From the IMG/VR virus record IMGVR_UViG_3300031787_000538, positions 1 through 31,778 of that record: DNA of 31,778 nucleotides; one strand, 5' to 3'. Shown in pieces: positions 4,798 to 27,434 of this stretch. A program made the position numbers and the translations under genes. The notes under the pieces were generated by a model. It was not told where the DNA came from. It was given only the letters and a program-made list of their open reading frames with translations, and ran no database searches. Positions within the stretch are counted from its first letter, which is position 1; each line of letters opens with the position of its first letter. The stretch comes from a virus.

Positions 4798-5047
4798 TTT
4801 TCCCACCTCCTTGTCTTAACATTCTTTCTTGAATCATTTTGTCTGCGATGACGTAAGCAGCGTGTACATCACCCTCAATCTGGGTATCTTCAAGGTTGAT
4901 TGTTCCCGCCAACTTCCAAACAGCTACCAGCGCCAAAGCCGCAAACTCGTCCCTGCTTTCAATGTAAATCTGATGGTTGCCTATATCCCCGAATATCTCT
5001 GGGTTAGGAATCATCTTCCTGATCAAATCGGTTTCTTTCTTTTTCAT
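4787..5047 (-). CDS. Hypothetical protein (86 aa)
   Basis: The product starts MKKKETDLIRKMIPNPEIFG and contains a helical AALALVAVWKLAGTI stretch, then an acidic/helical C-terminal half ending in QGGGKNGV. I recognise no family. The start at 5047 is supported by GAGGAGATAT directly before it; the longer reading would begin at a TTG. It lies between a 52-aa protein and the SSB-like gene in the left operon, so a small early or replication-accessory role is likely but unproven. Confidence 0.65.
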   Translation of the reverse strand: MKKKETDLIRKMIPNPEIFGDIGNHQIYIESRDEFAALALVAVWKLAGTINLEDTQIEGDVHAAYVIADKMIQERMLRQGGGKNGV

Positions 5048-5055
5048 ATATCTCC

Positions 5056-5214
5056 TCAAGGTTGTAAGTCTGATTCTTTGATTGCAGATAGGTATTCGTC
5101 AGCTTGCATCAGAGCTATCTTCTGAGCTGCCAAAGCCTCTGCAATCTGTGCCACGGTAAATCCTCTGCGTAGCAATTGCAACACAAAGTCACGCAAGATA
5201 TCTTCCATCGTCAT
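5056..5214 (-). CDS. Small helical protein, possible HTH (52 aa)
   Basis: The reading starts MTMEDILRDFVLQLLRRGFT and includes GFTVAQIAEALAAQKIALMQ, which has the spacing of a helix-turn-helix (T-V-A-Q-I-A-E-A-L). The ATG at 5214 follows GGAGGAGATGT; a second ATG lies two codons on. A 101-codon extension upstream would run through the structured GC-rich gap and is less likely. It is the first gene after that gap. A DNA-binding role is possible but not established. Confidence 0.65.
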   Translation of the reverse strand: MTMEDILRDFVLQLLRRGFTVAQIAEALAAQKIALMQADEYLSAIKESDLQP

Positions 5215-5505
5215 ACATCTCCTCCAAGTAAAGTCAAAAACCTGTGCCATGAAAATATGGGGAAAATTTGAGGGGGTAACCCCCGGACATACGTCTGGGG
5301 TGGGGGGGAGCATGGGTGCCTCTGCCGGGCCACACCGAATCGCCCTGGCCACCCCTCCCACCGGTGTCCAGATGCATAGGAACGTATGCCTTTGTACGGA
5401 ATCGCATAGCAGGCTCTAGGAGGCTCTGCGCTACCTTGGGTAAGCAAGGGTAGCCACTCACCTCTACGGAGCCAACAGCGGGTCTGTAATCGCGTCCTAG
5501 AGGCA
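5215..5505 (-). other. Structured, GC-rich gap within the left operon
   Basis: About 290 bases separate the replication gene from the next confident gene in an operon that otherwise overlaps its genes. It contains several short dyads. GGGGG-TAA-CCCCC is at 5272-5284. CCCCGGAC/GTCTGGGG at 5281-5300 shares its left arm with the first, so the two are mutually exclusive. GCATA/TATGC is at 5374-5389. CTACCTTG/CAAGGGTAG at 5431-5453 has one bulge. AGGCTCT is repeated 10 bases apart at 5411 and 5421. No clear U-tract terminator or tRNA is seen. It could be a leader, a small RNA or a coding region of odd composition. Confidence 0.5.
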
Positions 5506-5506
5506 T
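5234..5506 (-). CDS. Doubtful Pro/Gly-rich ORF (90 aa) inside the structured gap
   Basis: An ORF beginning MPLGRDYRPAVGSVEV starts as TGATG on the stop of the replication gene, the same coupling used elsewhere here. Against it, composition is skewed to P, G and R, no domain is recognisable, and the DNA is full of dyads. I list it only because the start overlap is suggestive. A non-coding explanation is equally possible. Confidence 0.25.
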   Translation of the reverse strand: MPLGRDYRPAVGSVEVSGYPCLPKVAQSLLEPAMRFRTKAYVPMHLDTGGRGGQGDSVWPGRGTHAPPHPRRMSGGYPLKFSPYFHGTGF

Positions 5507-6423
5507 CAGAATCCTGTAGCCTCCCCTGCCAATTGCTCACAGACCTCAGATAACCGTAGGCAGACCGGCATGGTCTGGCAGGCATCGATGAACTTCTCCC
5601 GGCTGACCCCGACCTCGCACATGATCGCAGCGCATCGCAGGTCAACCTCATCGATCCGTGTTGTCCTAACAAACCTATGTTTACTTATGTCTTCATAAAT
5701 ACTTAATACCTCTTCATAACCTATGTTTTTCTGTGTTTGGACAACACCTGCGTTGTCTATGATGTTGTCTATGAGAGGGTCTTCATTGACAACCTGTGTG
5801 TTGTCTATGTGAGGTGTCTTTGGTGTTGTTTTTGCCTTCAGTTTCCTAGCCATGATGTCTCCTATTTTCTCTGGTTTGTTGTAGTGAAATCCATCTCTGC
5901 CAGCTAGCCCTCCGAGCATCTCTCTCAACCTCTTTCGGTTAGCTGCCATCTGTTCCTCGGTGAACTCAGGCTCGGTGGCCTGCGCTGTCTCTTGCTTGAT
6001 CTGGTGTGGTGGCCTGGTGTCTTCCTGTCCGCTGGTGATAGCTATCGCATCCTCTGCCTTGATCTCGGTGTCGTAGATCACCCTGGTCGTGTTGGCTCGC
6101 TCGCCTCTAAATCCCTTGCTCATCACCTCAATGTGGCCACGGTCTCGCAGCTGCTTCATAGCTCTCGCTACCTGCTGCTTGGCCACTCCCAGATGCTCGG
6201 CAATCCTCTGCTGGCCAACCCAGGTTATCCCAGCTCTGTTGGCGTATGAGCAGAGCAGCACCAACACCTTGACCGAGAAACCGTGCAGCTCGGTGTCGGT
6301 CGCAGCTCGCATCGGCACCACGGCGAACTTACGTTGGTCAGGCGGTGCCTGCTTCTCAATTATCTTGGGCCGCTTGGGCAGCTTGAACTCGATCACTTGC
6401 GCTGTGTTTGTTTGTGTTCCCAT
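5506..6423 (-). CDS. O-like replication protein with winged helix (305 aa)
   Basis: Residues about 44-118 form a winged-helix domain: the helix VKVLVLLCSYANRAG, then QQRIAEHLGVAKQQVARAMKQL as the HTH, then a wing. This is the arrangement seen in phage replication initiators of the lambda O type and in some repressors. The middle is linker-like and charged. The C-terminal part (YEEVLSIYEDI to the end) is helical and could contact host helicase machinery, as in lambda; that is inference. The start at 6423 follows GAGGAT; the longer reading from 6537 would overlap two other frames. The gene itself carries an AT-rich tract and GACAAC-N6-GTTGTC dyads, the layout expected of an origin inside an initiator gene. 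Confidence 0.8.
   Translation of the reverse strand: MGTQTNTAQVIEFKLPKRPKIIEKQAPPDQRKFAVVPMRAATDTELHGFSVKVLVLLCSYANRAGITWVGQQRIAEHLGVAKQQVARAMKQLRDRGHIEVMSKGFRGERANTTRVIYDTEIKAEDAIAITSGQEDTRPPHQIKQETAQATEPEFTEEQMAANRKRLREMLGGLAGRDGFHYNKPEKIGDIMARKLKAKTTPKTPHIDNTQVVNEDPLIDNIIDNAGVVQTQKNIGYEEVLSIYEDISKHRFVRTTRIDEVDLRCAAIMCEVGVSREKFIDACQTMPVCLRLSEVCEQLAGEATGF
5660..5810. other. Candidate replication origin inside the replication gene
   Basis: Two perfect dyads GACAAC-N6-GTTGTC lie at 5740-5757 and 5788-5805, 48 bases apart. Additional GTTGTC copies lie at 5764 and 5660, and GTTGTCTATG occurs three times (5752, 5764, 5800). Beside them, 5668-5727 is about 25% GC by my count, with repeated CCTATGTTT and CTTCATA words. 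Repeated initiator sites next to an AT-rich unwinding tract within the initiator gene is the lambda plan. The repeats also show in the protein as IDNTQVV and IDNAGVV. Confidence 0.6.
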
Positions 6424-6710
6424 ATCCTCATCATCTCTTCCCGTAACGCCACTCGGGCGGTTCGCCCCCTTTTCTCTTCCACAGCATCGAGGTAAGCCAG
6501 GCGGGTCTTCTTGGTGCGATATCTCTTGAGTACCCACGCAGCCTCGCCGTGCAGGTAATACTTTTCAGAATAATTCCCAACAGAGCCACCGTAAGACAGA
6601 TTGACCAACCGACTATCAGGGTGCACACAGCCGCAAGACCGGCAGCGTAGCTCATCACTCTGGGTGGTAAGCGGAGCATCCGTTGACCCTCCCTGAAGTT
6701 GGCTTATCAA
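6393..6710 (-). CDS. Cys-containing small protein, DUF7696-like C-terminus (up to 105 aa, start uncertain)
   Basis: The C-terminal part (AWVLKRYRTKKTRLAYLDAV then EEKRGRTARVALREEMMRIW) resembles a small phage family I associate with DUF7696. It has a basic helix, Y-L-x-x-V-E-x-x-R-G, and a terminal W-E. The N-terminal part has CRSCGC, possibly metal-binding. The frame lacks an ATG; the listed start is a TTG at 6710 with a weak ribosome site. A strong GGGAGGG/ATG just downstream is in the other frame (see 6431-6679). Either the start is unusual or a frameshift joins the frames. The end overlaps the replication gene by 31 bases. Confidence 0.5.
   Translation of the reverse strand: MISQLQGGSTDAPLTTQSDELRCRSCGCVHPDSRLVNLSYGGSVGNYSEKYYLHGEAAWVLKRYRTKKTRLAYLDAVEEKRGRTARVALREEMMRIWEHKQTQRK
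6431..6679 (-). CDS. Alternative-frame ORF with N-terminal membrane helix (82 aa)
   Basis: This frame overlaps the 6393-6710 frame almost completely. Its ATG at 6679 has the best Shine-Dalgarno of the area (GGGAGGG, 7 bases upstream). A second ATG at 6655 forms TGATG with the stop of the preceding gene. The N-terminal third (SYAAGLAAVCTLIVGWSICL and on) reads as a membrane helix, while the rest is basic and Pro/Trp-rich without family resemblance. It may be a genuine overlapping gene, the entry point for a frameshift into the other frame, or a by-chance ORF. Confidence 0.3.
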   Translation of the reverse strand: MLRLPPRVMSYAAGLAAVCTLIVGWSICLTVALLGIILKSITCTARLRGYSRDIAPRRPAWLTSMLWKRKGGEPPEWRYGKR

Positions 6711-6840
6711 AGAACCGACACCACAGAAACCATCCCCGAAAGCTTACGTTCTTGCAGTCGGCACAGCTCGACTTCTCTGGTTCTCCACGCAGGTCGCACA
6801 TTGCCACCTTCGGTTCTTTCCCTGGTTCAACAGTTTCCAT
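6655..6840 (-). CDS. Cys-rich, probable zinc-binding small protein (61 aa)
   Basis: The product includes MCDLRGEPEKSSCADCKNV, then WCRFFDKPTSGRVNGCSAYH, giving five cysteines in a CxxC-like arrangement typical of small phage zinc proteins. The start at 6840 (METVEPGK) follows a G-rich tract that sits very close. MCDLRG at 6801, preceded by AAGGTGG, is an alternative. It overlaps the upstream zinc-ribbon ORF in another frame by about 97 bases with the longer start, or 58 with the shorter. No function is assigned. Confidence 0.55.
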   Translation of the reverse strand: METVEPGKEPKVAMCDLRGEPEKSSCADCKNVSFRGWFLWCRFFDKPTSGRVNGCSAYHPE

Positions 6841-6944
6841 ACTCCCCCCGCTGCTTGTCTTCGGTGCCTGCAATGCGAGCACCACCTGGTTCCAAGTAGT
6901 TCCTCTTCCCGTTTAGTAACGTGCTGGTATAGCTCGTTAGGCAT
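6744..6944 (-). CDS. Small zinc-ribbon protein (66 aa)
   Basis: The sequence has two cysteine pairs, RWCSHCRHRR and RRWQCATCVEN, separated by about 25 residues with G-G before the second pair. This is the layout of small zinc-ribbon proteins common in phage early regions. GGGAGGAT precedes the ATG and the start overlaps the stop region of the resolvase-like gene. The C-terminal part overlaps another Cys-rich frame (6655-6840), which leaves the true boundary of the two uncertain. A nucleic-acid or protein-binding role is inference. Confidence 0.6.
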   Translation of the reverse strand: MPNELYQHVTKREEELLGTRWCSHCRHRRQAAGGVWKLLNQGKNRRWQCATCVENQRSRAVPTART

Positions 6945-7293
6945 TGAGATCCTCCCTCACAGCCTTACAGAACCAATCGAGCGGCACCACAGCTCTCCAG
7001 GGTTGCCCAGAGCGTCTGAAGATCACCACAGGCACAGGCGAGCCAACAGAGCCCTCAGAATCGATTTGTGAGCCCGTGGTAACCGAGAGCTCAACCTGGC
7101 GGCACCAATCCTCGATGGCCAACCGCTCCTGGCGTTTGACCTCGATGCAAAACCGTCCAATCTCGATGTCGTGGCCACCGTCTCTCGCCTGGCCAAGCTT
7201 GCGCTTTACCTCAAACCCCAGCTGCTCAGTCAAGATCGCAGCTAGCTCGCGCTCGCCTGTCGCACCCTTGTTACGCCTTCCCCGGCCATTCAT
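6937..7293 (-). CDS. PDDEXK endonuclease, Holliday-junction-resolvase-like (118 aa)
   Basis: Catalytic positions of the archaeal-Hjc/VRR-NUC-like PDDEXK fold are visible: E14 in GATGERELAAIL, D42 in DGGHDIEIG, and E51-x-K53 in FCIEVKRQE. Size fits a small junction-resolving or structure-specific nuclease. Such enzymes resolve branched replication and recombination intermediates before packaging, which suits a phage that also encodes an exonuclease and annealing protein on the other strand. It is coupled to the upstream regulator by ATGA. The exact substrate cannot be read. Confidence 0.8.
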   Translation of the reverse strand: MNGRGRRNKGATGERELAAILTEQLGFEVKRKLGQARDGGHDIEIGRFCIEVKRQERLAIEDWCRQVELSVTTGSQIDSEGSVGSPVPVVIFRRSGQPWRAVVPLDWFCKAVREDLNA

Positions 7294-7487
7294 TGGATAT
7301 CTGGCTGGTTAGCAATCAATGCATCTAGCCGGTTGTCCACCTCCAGGTGCTCGGCCAGGTGGGTCTCGATGAGCTCATGCAAGATAGCCGTGCGATCCTT
7401 TTTCAACTTCTTGCTAGCAGCTGCCAGCAGGTGCCTGGCCTGTGGGCGCAGGCGAAAGTAGAACCCAGAAAACTCTGTTGTTGCCAT
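7290..7487 (-). CDS. Ribbon-helix-helix (Arc/CopG-type) regulator (65 aa)
   Basis: The first gene of the left operon encodes a short protein with the RHH layout. A beta-strand (FSGFYFRLRP) is followed by helix RHLLAAASKKLKKD and helix RTAILHELIETHLAEHL. RHH dimers insert the strand into the DNA major groove and bind palindromic operators in tandem. The gene is adjacent to the divergent control region with three phased palindromes, so autoregulation and control of the rightward operon are likely but inferred. A GGGGGGATAT sequence precedes the ATG. Confidence 0.75.
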   Translation of the reverse strand: MATTEFSGFYFRLRPQARHLLAAASKKLKKDRTAILHELIETHLAEHLEVDNRLDALIANQPDIQ

Positions 7488-7633
7488 ATATCCCCCCGGT
7501 TAAATAGGCGTAAGGATATACCTGTGGATATCTTTTTTGCAATAGGGTATTGACAAGCAGATATCTCATGTGTTCTTATCTCACCTGGGCGCAGATATCT
7601 GTGTCCGTCAACTACCACAGATGGAGATTGAGA
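7488..7633. promoter_or_regulatory. Divergent control region with three phased GATATC elements
   Basis: Between the leftward regulator and the rightward recombinase, GATATC-centred palindromes occur at 7527-7532 (GTGGATATCT), 7560-7565 (GCAGATATCT) and 7594-7599 (GCAGATATCT, extending to CAGATATCTG). They are spaced 33 and 34 bases apart, about three helical turns. An imperfect 12-base palindrome AAGGATATACCT lies at 7512-7523. The second element sits between the -35 and -10 boxes of a rightward promoter, so a bound protein there would block transcription. The binding protein could be the RHH regulator or the serine recombinase. Confidence 0.65.
7550..7579 (+). promoter_or_regulatory. Rightward sigma70-like promoter
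   Basis: A perfect -35 box TTGACA lies at 7550-7555. A weak -10 TCTTAT at 7574-7579 gives 18-base spacing. It points at the recombinase/recombination operon. The GATATC element at 7560 falls between the boxes, which supports repression. Confidence 0.5.
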
Positions 7634-17473: not shown

Positions 17474-19546
17474 CTAGACTACAGTCCAAGCAGAGCCGCT
17501 TGCAACAGTCACCGTAATACCTGAGTTAACTGTTACAGGGCCAGCAGATAAACCATTAAAACCAGTATCAACGGTATAGTTCGCCGCAATAGTATTTGCA
17601 TTGACAGTAATACCGTTACTAGAAACCATCGCCGTAGATTGCAGCTCACCTGTACTGGGCTTGTACAGCAACTTGGCATTACCTGTATTTAGGCTACTAG
17701 CCGTACCGCTGGTACTGGTTACAAATGTTGGGTATAGGTTAGTTGTGGTGCTTGTGTCGTTTGAGATGGTAATACTTGTGCCGCTGCTTGGCGTTACAAA
17801 CGACAGGGTTCCAGAACCGTTAGTCTTTAATACTTGATCTGCCGTTCCATCAGTTGTCGGCAGGGTGAACGTATTAACAAACGATGTTAGGTTGCTATCG
17901 TATGCCTGGACATCTGTGCCTATAGTCAGGCCAAGGGAGGTCTTTAGCGTAGCCCCTGATTCAACAACAAAGTTAGTACCGTTGCCGATAATCACGCCAT
18001 TGTCTGTTGGGGTCAGGCCAGCTACGTCAGCTAGTTGAGCATCGTAGGCTTGTACGCTAGAGCCAATGTTAGATGCGGTGAGCACGTTGCTACCAGAGTT
18101 CTGCAAAGTACCGGTAAAGTTTGCGGTTGTGTCGGCGTACTTAGCAAAGCTAGATGCTGTGAATGTGCTGTCTTTGATTAGCTTTCCGGTTGTGCCATCA
18201 AACGCAGCCAGGCGATCATTGACCGCAGATGCTGGGCCAACCACATCACCGGTTCCAGAGCCTGCCGCACCCTTCTCAGCAAGCACATCCCAGTATGTTG
18301 TATTGGTGGGCAGGTTGCCAGTAGATGCCAGCTTACAAATGTAGCTTGATCCGTTGTAGCTGACAGCGTCATCGACTACATAGGATGTACCGCCAGCGTA
18401 GGCACCCAGCCAGTTGACACCAACCGGGCCTGTTGCCCCTGTTGCCCCTGTTGCACCGGTTGCGCCTGTGGCTCCAGTAGCTCCAGTTGGAATGCCGAGG
18501 GTTAGTACATAAGTACCAGAGTTGTAAGACGCTGTTGCGCTAGATCCAGCTGAGAGCGTGGTAGCTGTGGCCGTGAGATTGTTGGCCAGGTTGATCGATG
18601 CATTGCTGGCATTGGTTGCCGTAGTGGCAGATGATGCAGCCGAGGTTGCGCTGTTGGCTGCGTTAGTCGCAGAAGTGCTAGCGGACGATGCGCTATTGGA
18701 TGCGTTGGTTGCTGCCGTGCTAGCAGTAGAGGCAGAGCTTGATGCATTGCTTGCGCTGGTGCTGGCAGATGATGCGCTGCTGGCCGCATTGGTCGCAGAG
18801 GTTGATGCGTTAGATGCCGAGGTGCTGGCGTTAGAGGCTGACGTTGAGGCGGCAGATGCGCTGGCAGCAGCTGCTGTAGCTGAAGCCCCGGCAGATGCGT
18901 TATCTACAATCAGATCCCACTTGGCAGAATCGGTGTTAGTAGAGATAGGCTGCGATCCGCTAGACGTATGCGAGGTATTGGCGTAGTAGATGTTGCCGTT
19001 GCTGGTGTCTTTGACAATGTCGCGTTTATTGTAGGAAGTTGTAGCTGCCCAGTTGCCACGGTTATCGCCAATTGTTTCGCCGGTCGTTGGGTTCCCGTTA
19101 ACATCAAAAGCAAGAACTTTATTAGCCCGTACAGTAGACCGTGGCAGGGTCATGTTGATTGAGGTTGGATCAGTCTGCGGAGCCTTCAGGGATCGGTCTG
19201 CGGCCTCGGCATTCTGCTGGGCAAAGATGGTCAAGCTGTCCAGCTCATCATTAATCGTATTGGCAAACAGGTCACCGCCCGTCACAAAGTCTGAGGTGCG
19301 CTGGATCGCCCGGTCACCAACGATGGCAATCTGCGTTGCCCCGGTAGGCGTTGCCGTCAGGGTCACAAAGCCGGTGCCGTTTGAGTTGATCGTAACCGTG
19401 TAGTCCGTGGTCAACGTCAGCAGGGTATCGTCCTTGTACACAGAGATATCTGTGTTGGCCAGGATCTCAAAGGTAAAGGAGTACGGCCCGGTGCCAGAGG
19501 CAGCGAGCACTACTCGGCGGGTGACGTTGCTAATAGGGACTGCCAT
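17474..19546 (-). CDS. Long tail fibre: T7-type connector, Ala/Ser repeats, collagen-like stretch (690 aa)
   Basis: Residues 1 to about 150 (MAVPISNVTRRVVLAASGTG, FTFEILANTDISVYKDD, QRTSDFVTGGDLFANTIND) resemble the T7 gp17 N-terminal domain that attaches fibres to the tail. Residues 165-215 look like a carbohydrate-binding-module-type segment (W, Y, G-D/D-V, Y-Y, W). Residues 216-318 are almost all A, S, T and N in an ASNASTSA pattern. Residues about 353-373 are GAT triplets of collagen type. A second binding-module-like segment with Y, W and S-Y-I-C-K follows at about 374-425, then a beta-rich distal part to the C-terminus. It likely forms a long flexible trimeric fibre. Confidence 0.88.
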   Translation of the reverse strand: MAVPISNVTRRVVLAASGTGPYSFTFEILANTDISVYKDDTLLTLTTDYTVTINSNGTGFVTLTATPTGATQIAIVGDRAIQRTSDFVTGGDLFANTINDELDSLTIFAQQNAEAADRSLKAPQTDPTSINMTLPRSTVRANKVLAFDVNGNPTTGETIGDNRGNWAATTSYNKRDIVKDTSNGNIYYANTSHTSSGSQPISTNTDSAKWDLIVDNASAGASATAAAASASAASTSASNASTSASNASTSATNAASSASSASTSASNASSSASTASTAATNASNSASSASTSATNAANSATSAASSATTATNASNASINLANNLTATATTLSAGSSATASYNSGTYVLTLGIPTGATGATGATGATGATGATGPVGVNWLGAYAGGTSYVVDDAVSYNGSSYICKLASTGNLPTNTTYWDVLAEKGAAGSGTGDVVGPASAVNDRLAAFDGTTGKLIKDSTFTASSFAKYADTTANFTGTLQNSGSNVLTASNIGSSVQAYDAQLADVAGLTPTDNGVIIGNGTNFVVESGATLKTSLGLTIGTDVQAYDSNLTSFVNTFTLPTTDGTADQVLKTNGSGTLSFVTPSSGTSITISNDTSTTTNLYPTFVTSTSGTASSLNTGNAKLLYKPSTGELQSTAMVSSNGITVNANTIAANYTVDTGFNGLSAGPVTVNSGITVTVASGSAWTVV
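18420..18490 (-). repeat. Collagen-like coding repeat (Gly-Ala-Thr triplets)
   Basis: Tandem nine-base units encode about six consecutive Gly-Ala-Thr triplets within the long fibre. Such tracts vary in copy number by slippage and lengthen or shorten the fibre shaft. Confidence 0.8.
18530..18900 (-). repeat. Ala/Ser/Asn-rich degenerate coding repeat
   Basis: Codons for A, S, T and N recur in a five-to-eight-residue periodicity for about 100 residues of the long fibre. Its antisense strand reads as an open Ala/Val/Leu-rich frame only because of this bias. Confidence 0.75.
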
Positions 19547-26841: not shown

Positions 26842-27434
26842 TATGTTGGTACAACCATTCTGGTTTCAACTGGTGCTGGAACAAGCCAGTTATAACTTGT
26901 TCGATCAAATCCACCGCCCTTGCCTGCGGTTGCACCGGCCATCAAAAGCTTGGTAGCCGCATCTAACTTGCCTGCTGTTTTTGCTTGTTGGGCCGCAGCT
27001 AGATTAGATGCCAAGGCAATGTCTCCAGCTCGTATTGCTGCGTCTGCGTCATCTAGATAAATCTTGAACTCTCGCCCGGCAGATGTTTCATTAGATGCCC
27101 GAACAATATCTGTTGACCCGCTAAACGAATCAACACCACCAGCAAATCCTTTTGCCGTTAGGGTGGCGTTAGTCTTCTTAAGCCGCTCTAGAACCTGGTT
27201 GGCTTTCTGCTGATACTGGATCGCCCGGCGGTCATACTGAGTTTGTTCTAGCCTTCCCTTGAGCTCTAGCTGCTTGCCCTGGATCTGGCCTTGCTGGTAT
27301 GAGCTGTAAGCAGACATAACAGATGCGGCCACAGCTGCGGCGGTAAACGGATCGTTCTGAACCCTGCTTGATCCAGGTGGGTTGTGTGGGTCACCAAGCG
27401 GTAGCCCGTGGACGTTGATATTAAATCTGCTCAT
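26841..27434 (-). CDS. gp14-like internal virion protein (197 aa)
   Basis: The sequence includes AAAVAASVMSAYSSYQQGQI, QYQQKANQVLERLKKTNATL, and DADAAIRAGDIALASNLAAA, the Gln/Ala-rich helical character of T7 gp14-type proteins that reach the outer membrane on ejection. It lies directly after the tail nozzle gene, the same order as other podoviruses of this plan. The start ATG follows the nozzle stop by one base. Confidence 0.75.
   Translation of the reverse strand: MSRFNINVHGLPLGDPHNPPGSSRVQNDPFTAAAVAASVMSAYSSYQQGQIQGKQLELKGRLEQTQYDRRAIQYQQKANQVLERLKKTNATLTAKGFAGGVDSFSGSTDIVRASNETSAGREFKIYLDDADAAIRAGDIALASNLAAAQQAKTAGKLDAATKLLMAGATAGKGGGFDRTSYNWLVPAPVETRMVVPT

Follow-up and report, generated by a model that had tools for sequence, protein, structure and literature searches.

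Initiator gene and encoded protein

The DNA analyzed was a phage record of IMG/VR, IMGVR_UViG_3300031787_000538, over positions 1-31,778 (31,778 nt; the window). An O-like replication initiator gene lies on its minus strand, and the features assigned to the gene are given in Table 1. The reading frame stays open upstream of ATG 6423, as far as a GTG at 6537. The protein matched HTH_36 of Pfam at 4.5e-8 and the PHROG replication initiation families 270, 391 and 345 at 2.2e-10 to 6.4e-8; families 391 and 345 (4.9e-8 and 6.4e-8) carry the annotation 'replication initiation O-like' and place the protein in the O-like family.

Table 1. Features of the initiator gene, in window coordinates
Feature	Position	Strand	Details and basis
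O-like replication initiator gene	5506..6423	-	305 aa, ATG 6423; translation, ORF list, Pfam, PHROG
Winged-helix DNA-binding domain	6070..6282	-	about residues 48-118; AlphaFold2 block-mean pLDDT 82-95; PDB matches
Recognition helix	6142..6180	-	residues 82-94; AlphaFold2 model; K82, A86 and R87 covary with the half-site
C-terminal helical domain	5515..5718	-	about residues 236-303; model and alignment; type varies among relatives
Dyad 1 with outer CAT(A/T)	5784..5809	.	CATTGACAAC-N6-GTTGTCTATG on the plus strand; sequence search
Dyad 2, GACAAC-N6-GTTGTC, one outer CATA	5740..5761	.	sequence search
Fifth half-site CATAGACAAC	5764..5773	-	in tandem; 12 bp separate it from the dyad 2 left arm
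Outlying GACAAC copy past the AT tract	5660..5665	-	role uncertain
AT-rich tract, 25% GC	5671..5730	.	just after dyad 2 in gene order; base composition

Numbering of the AlphaFold2 model is one lower than that of the protein, model helix 81-93 corresponding to residues 82-94. Residues 82, 86 and 87 occupy the first turns of the recognition helix in this model, and the linker, with pLDDT mostly below 50, is predicted to be disordered. Winged-helix PDB matches from the structure search span model residues 34-120, and many of them are MarR-like. Foldseek with the initiator model gave no row at an E-value of 0.001 or below, the rows from which the MarR fold was compared. As to the MarR-type dimerising fold, a second set of structure matches mostly covered the winged helix alone. 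Structure matches at Z below 8 were not counted as family evidence. The initiator profile matched six PDB sequences, with a best E of 0.0026, over a short helix-turn-helix stretch.

The C-terminal domain would recruit the host replication machinery. In L029-L036 and L042-L044 this domain is of different kinds past the origin, as if swapped there, and in L033 (4144-4153) a stop lies in the initiator frame just past the linker, the C-terminal domain being missing or separate.

MEP301, a cultured marine OM43 phage, shares the local order of O-like gene, RusA, SSB, small and large terminase and acetyltransferase, and the assignment of the window as MEP301-like rests on this local gene order; the available text of PMC8024684 defines the MEP301-type group by at least 40% of genes shared with MEP301. 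The first-pass annotation had described a phage without its own polymerase genes in the window. This fits MEP301, which has the same local order and for which the available text lists five replication and metabolism genes, with no polymerase and no initiator among them (PMC8024684).

Runs of C and G are present at 5270-5310, downstream of the initiator gene. Rfam gave 0 matches over 5000-7500, and no described RNA structure is therefore placed there. The window also encodes, at 17474-19546, a large protein, perhaps a tail fibre, that contains long repeats of serine, alanine and threonine as well as a collagen-like GATGATGATG stretch.

Dyads and half-sites in the initiator gene

Two perfect GACAAC-N6-GTTGTC dyads 48 bases apart, extra GTTGTC copies and a 60-base tract of about 25% GC had been described in the initiator gene at first pass, the dyads encoding a repeated peptide, IDN(T/A)xVV. 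Both dyads were located exactly: the record of 31,778 bases contains just two mismatch-free copies of GACAACNNNNNNGTTGTC, at 5740-5757 and 5788-5805, whose starts are 48 bases apart. Of the 24 GACAAC or GTTGTC hexamers in the record, six cluster in 5660-5805 (at 5660, 5740, 5752, 5764, 5788 and 5800), and the longer half-site CAT(A/T)GACAAC is found only at 5752, 5764, 5784 and 5800. The peptide is encoded twice. The tract at 5671-5730 has 25% GC against 49.9% for the record; it ranks fifth from the bottom among the non-overlapping 60-mers of the record and falls in the bottom 0.15% when all 60-mers are taken. The described layout, with dyads and AT tract inside the gene, was retained and its order was corrected: because the gene is on the minus strand, the dyads come first in gene order and the AT tract after. 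A fifth, tandem half-site between the two dyads was added. In relatives, copies near the place of the outlying copy at 5660 are not always of the gene's own half-site type.

When up to 2 mismatches were allowed, the dyad search returned 3 matches against 1.15 expected in the record, a count that is weak taken alone and that would suit a chance or low-complexity effect of the AT-rich, repetitive linker. Against such an effect, the dyads are exact, and when synonymous codons were shuffled 2000 times within the gene, with protein and codon usage kept, only 0.05% of the shuffles (0.0005) reached two such dyads. Chance or low complexity is refuted by the covariation of helix and sites over 99 genes given below, and its probability is taken as close to nil.

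Relatives and dyad calling

Relatives were gathered by five scans of viral contigs, two of which kept the best 80 of 244 and the best 80 of 334; several loci overlap, having been taken from one and the same contig. After a profile search, 143 distinct proteins that retain most of the N-terminal domain remained. A scan of genome contigs with alignment A1 gave 38 candidate stretches and 0 relatives, and a search of a phage collection with the initiator protein gave two records, whose matches extend over 44% and 24% of its length.

Dyads were called from the DNA only, the protein being ignored, as at least two dyads with arms ending in AC and at most one mismatch each; other kinds of site are therefore invisible to the rule. 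A repeated in-gene dyad was called in 99 of the 143 initiator genes. The called half-sites were CACAAC (40 genes), GACAAC (24), GGACAC (16), GTCAAC (9), GGCAAC (4), TACAAC (3), CGCAAC (1), TGCAAC (1) and AACAAC (1), and none of the 99 genes combined exact dyads from different main types, of which there are five. The synonymous shuffle was applied to 13 genes; it was not significant for L020, L044 and L227 and was void for L101, which is without an exact dyad.

No repeated dyad was called in the other 44 genes, which include a whole subfamily (within L045-L071) without code half-sites in dyads; this subfamily has a related N-terminal domain and a short linker. MEP301 gp55 (L237:113-718), which stands outside the 143, is an initiator homologue with 37% identity over 44% of the window protein. 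It is annotated as hypothetical and is shorter than the window initiator (201 aa against 305 aa), and a search of gp55, L046 and L069 for repeats gave none of the dyad kind. Since the dyads are absent from gp55 and from the L045-L071 subfamily, the origin there must differ or lie elsewhere.

Covariation of recognition helix and half-site

Half-sites followed residues 82, 86 and 87, given here in that order. KAR was paired with GACAAC in 23 genes, KNK or KNR with GTCAAC in 8, RTK with GGCAAC in 4 and RTN with GGACAC in 16, and Q82 with A, S or G at 86 and K87 was paired with nACAAC in 44. Single-gene cases were RSK with CGCAAC, RQK with TGCAAC, KSK with GACAAC and KSK with GTCAAC.

Covariation was calculated over the 99 genes, weighted for relatedness to an effective n of 35, and 137 N-terminal columns. 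By normalised information, residues 82 and 86 ranked first and second among the 137 columns for bases 1 and 2, and residue 87 ranked first for bases 3-4, where it explained all of the entropy (0.58 of 0.58 bits). By plain mutual information for base 1, residue 72 fell between 82 and 86.

A tree was built with 60 representatives out of 96 with a well-filled N-terminal domain, residues 78-92 being left out. The minimum number of changes on this 60-row tree was 20 for the half-site, 11 for base 2, 6 for bases 3-4 and 7 for the spacer. Independent pairs on starred branches of this tree were counted as same, opposite and no difference. Base 2 = A against helix state gave 6-0-1 (p 0.031), base 2 = G against R82 gave 5-0-0, base 1 = G against not-Q82 gave 5-0-1, bases 3-4 against N87 gave 4-0-0 and base 2 = T against N86 gave 2-0-1. 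The opposite direction never occurred, and 0.05 was reached only for base 2 = A, the remaining tests having too few pairs.

The clearest pair is L077 and L078, which are identical at 107 of 121 residues outside the helix and at 6 of 13 inside it and have CACAAC and GGACAC sites, respectively. An exception is L231, which shares 12 of 13 helix residues with L227 and was called GTCAAC against GACAAC; the L231 sites are mixed. L023 and L026 have one GACATC dyad despite a KAR helix.

The 44 uncalled genes, 24 of which have a helix outside the code, were used as a held-out set. The half-site predicted from the helix came out on top in 18 of the 20 with a code-covered helix, in a check that was not blind, many of these linkers having been inspected beforehand and R87 being treated as K87 by analogy; 11 of the 18 successes have an R-T-R helix and, all but L095, are close relatives. 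The two misses, L215 and L225, are fragments ending before the origin.

The first-pass reading had been made to depend on conservation of the dyads in relatives, and the outcome goes beyond conservation: dyads were kept to the base where the helix was kept, and sites were changed where the helix was changed. These comparisons of sequence suggest that the binding sites and the DNA-reading helix change together across relatives, and that the result is a readable recognition code. A literature search of titles and abstracts, weak because most subscription journals were outside its reach, gave no description of helix-dyad covariation. What is new here is that helix and sites covary, together with the changes of frame.

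Constraint on the DNA

Of the 99 exact dyads (a count of dyads, distinct from the 99 genes), 69 have a left half-site that starts in codon phase 0, 24 one in phase 1 and 6 one in phase 2. The word CACAAC gives HN (L103), TQP (L035) or YTT (L044), and GTCAAC gives VN (L020) or SQP (L038). As the left half-site is found in all three frames, it is the DNA that is kept and not the peptide. The dyad spacer ranges from 5 to 8 among relatives, and a change from 6 to 8 accompanies the frame change in the examples inspected.

IDNxxVV is nearly invariant in the 22 closest genes, as would be expected if the peptide had a function in the linker, such as dimerisation or the binding of a partner, and the DNA dyad were its by-product. 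Relatives, however, encode the same kind of half-site in other frames (TQP, SQP, RQP, YTT), the linker is predicted to be disordered, and the site codons are kept beyond the protein's need. Synonymous diversity in the 22 genes was 0.042 for the 17 site codons, 0.107 for 30 other linker codons and 0.293 for 183 codons elsewhere. A functional peptide as the reason for the repeat is regarded as very improbable.

In a control with contiguous blocks, 19 of 183 blocks were as low as the sites. All of them start at codons 199-223 of the aligned protein, so that the constraint extends beyond the dyads to the origin as a whole and takes in the beginning of the AT tract.

AT-rich tract, DnaA-box-like words and GC skew

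The AT-rich tract is a probable duplex-unwinding element, to judge from its composition and position. The lowest-GC 50-mer lay directly after the last dyad in 93 of the 96 genes long enough to judge, with a median GC of 0.22 against 0.53 for the gene. DnaA-box-like words, TGTGGA(T/C)AA on either strand, were found in 67 of the 143 initiator genes, at 0.62 per gene against 0.06 in synonymous shuffles; the window contains none. Three such words stand in tandem with 12-base spacing at L218:5607-5645, and the word in L044 has the opposite orientation and is read in another frame.

The same dyads might serve as operators, through which the winged-helix protein would repress or otherwise regulate transcription from within its own gene while replication started elsewhere. 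Winged helices of this shape are common in transcription regulators, as the many MarR-like matches reflect, and the covariation shows binding, not replication. The sites, though, lie about 600 bases into the gene beside the conserved AT tract, DnaA-box-like words occur in the same gene in nearly half of the relatives, and the PHROG matches are to replication initiation families. An operator function in place of an origin is therefore considered improbable. GC skew, named at first pass as a means of checking the origin, did not point to the site: the minimum of the record is at 27156 and nothing was seen at the candidate origin.

Proposed origin and mechanism

Our reading of the feature, with a probability of about 0.88, is that a MEP301-like phage carries its replication origin within the gene of its initiator, and we propose a mechanism for it. 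From the sequence, the origin reading of the initiator-gene linker is strongly supported; computation established the sites and where they lie, the way they change in concert with the helix, their use of three reading frames, and the AT tract. The first-pass interpretation as an origin is upheld by dyads that track the helix, by the AT tract of relatives and by the DnaA-box-like sites in many of their initiator genes.

We infer that dimer binding, melting, helicase recruitment and the start of replication take place at this site. Each dyad would be bound by O-like protein dimers by way of the recognition helix, in whose first turns residues 82 and 86 would read the outer two bases and residue 87 the following two. 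Occupancy of both dyads and of the tandem half-site may strain the DNA, upon which the adjacent AT-rich tract would melt, and the C-terminal domain would then bring the host helicase. Following a change in the helix, the sites in the linker would be rewritten to match. The disordered linker tolerates many sequences and could for this reason carry a DNA signal.

A wider proposal is tentative, and its odds are placed somewhat below even. The group may comprise several mutually incompatible replication types, in which about three recognition-helix residues and the concerted rewriting of half-sites in the disordered linker switched specificity repeatedly and in all three frames, probably in escape from competition or from parasites using relatives' initiators. 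No helicase loader would be phage-encoded, and the residues would form a code predicting the origin of an unseen member. The mutual incompatibility of the types and the driver of their change are conjecture.

A phage group with a cultured, poorly annotated relative gains a probable replication initiator, and for most of the members seen a probable origin can be read from the sequence. Among the relatives, initiators and origins come in naturally matched pairs that form a series. Because near-identical proteins among them differ mainly in one helix, an old question becomes directly testable, namely how an initiator and the full set of its sites can switch specificity in concert.

Comparison with known systems

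In the available text of PMC7466680, lambda-type origins lie midway through gene O and have iterons that are imperfect inverted repeats of about 19 bp, with an AT-rich tract next to them, and lambda O acts as dimers. The candidate origin resembles ori-lambda and the Stx phage origins, as they appear in that text, in having inverted-repeat iterons inside the initiator gene and an AT-rich tract beside them, and the lambda organisation proposed at first pass matches this layout. Those origins have 4 to 6 iterons, whereas two dyads and a tandem half-site are present here. The half-site CAT(W)nnCAAC, the spacers of 5 to 8 and the DnaA-box-like sites in the initiator gene of many relatives are further differences from lambda.

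Unlike lambda, no P-like helicase loader was detected in 12 near-genome-length records. Models of lambda P (PF06992), DnaB (PF03796) and IstB/DnaC-like proteins (PF01695) each matched 0 of these 12 (31.8-35.5 kb, window and MEP301 included), which may be fragments and in which a diverged loader could be missed; in 14 control genomes the lambda P, DnaB and IstB/DnaC models matched in 1, 14 and 13, respectively. The C-terminal domain, which differs in kind among relatives, would recruit the host helicase directly or via host factors. By analogy, the site may work like the lambda origin, with the differences that its specificity switches in concert, that its iterons hop between frames and that no helicase loader was detected.

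The winged-helix initiator or Rep chains of PDB 4pt7, 4pql and 5kbj, which we take to be staphylococcal plasmid initiators, were among the structure matches of the initiator at a Z of 7.3-7.4 at best, tied with unrelated winged helices, and no membership is claimed. O proteins of the lambdoid phages lambda, phi80, 82 and P22 act on their own origin type, and these types number a handful; nine half-site sequences were found here, with graded intermediates that point to single residues.

Geminivirus Rep is not known to be a winged helix. Its iteron-related domain is the nearest published parallel found to the helix-site covariation, variation of initiator residues being correlated with iteron variation in more than 100 viruses in the available text of PMC10653810. 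A rolling-circle Rep is there paired with iterons in the common or intergenic region (PMC10653810), whereas the sites described here lie inside the initiator gene.
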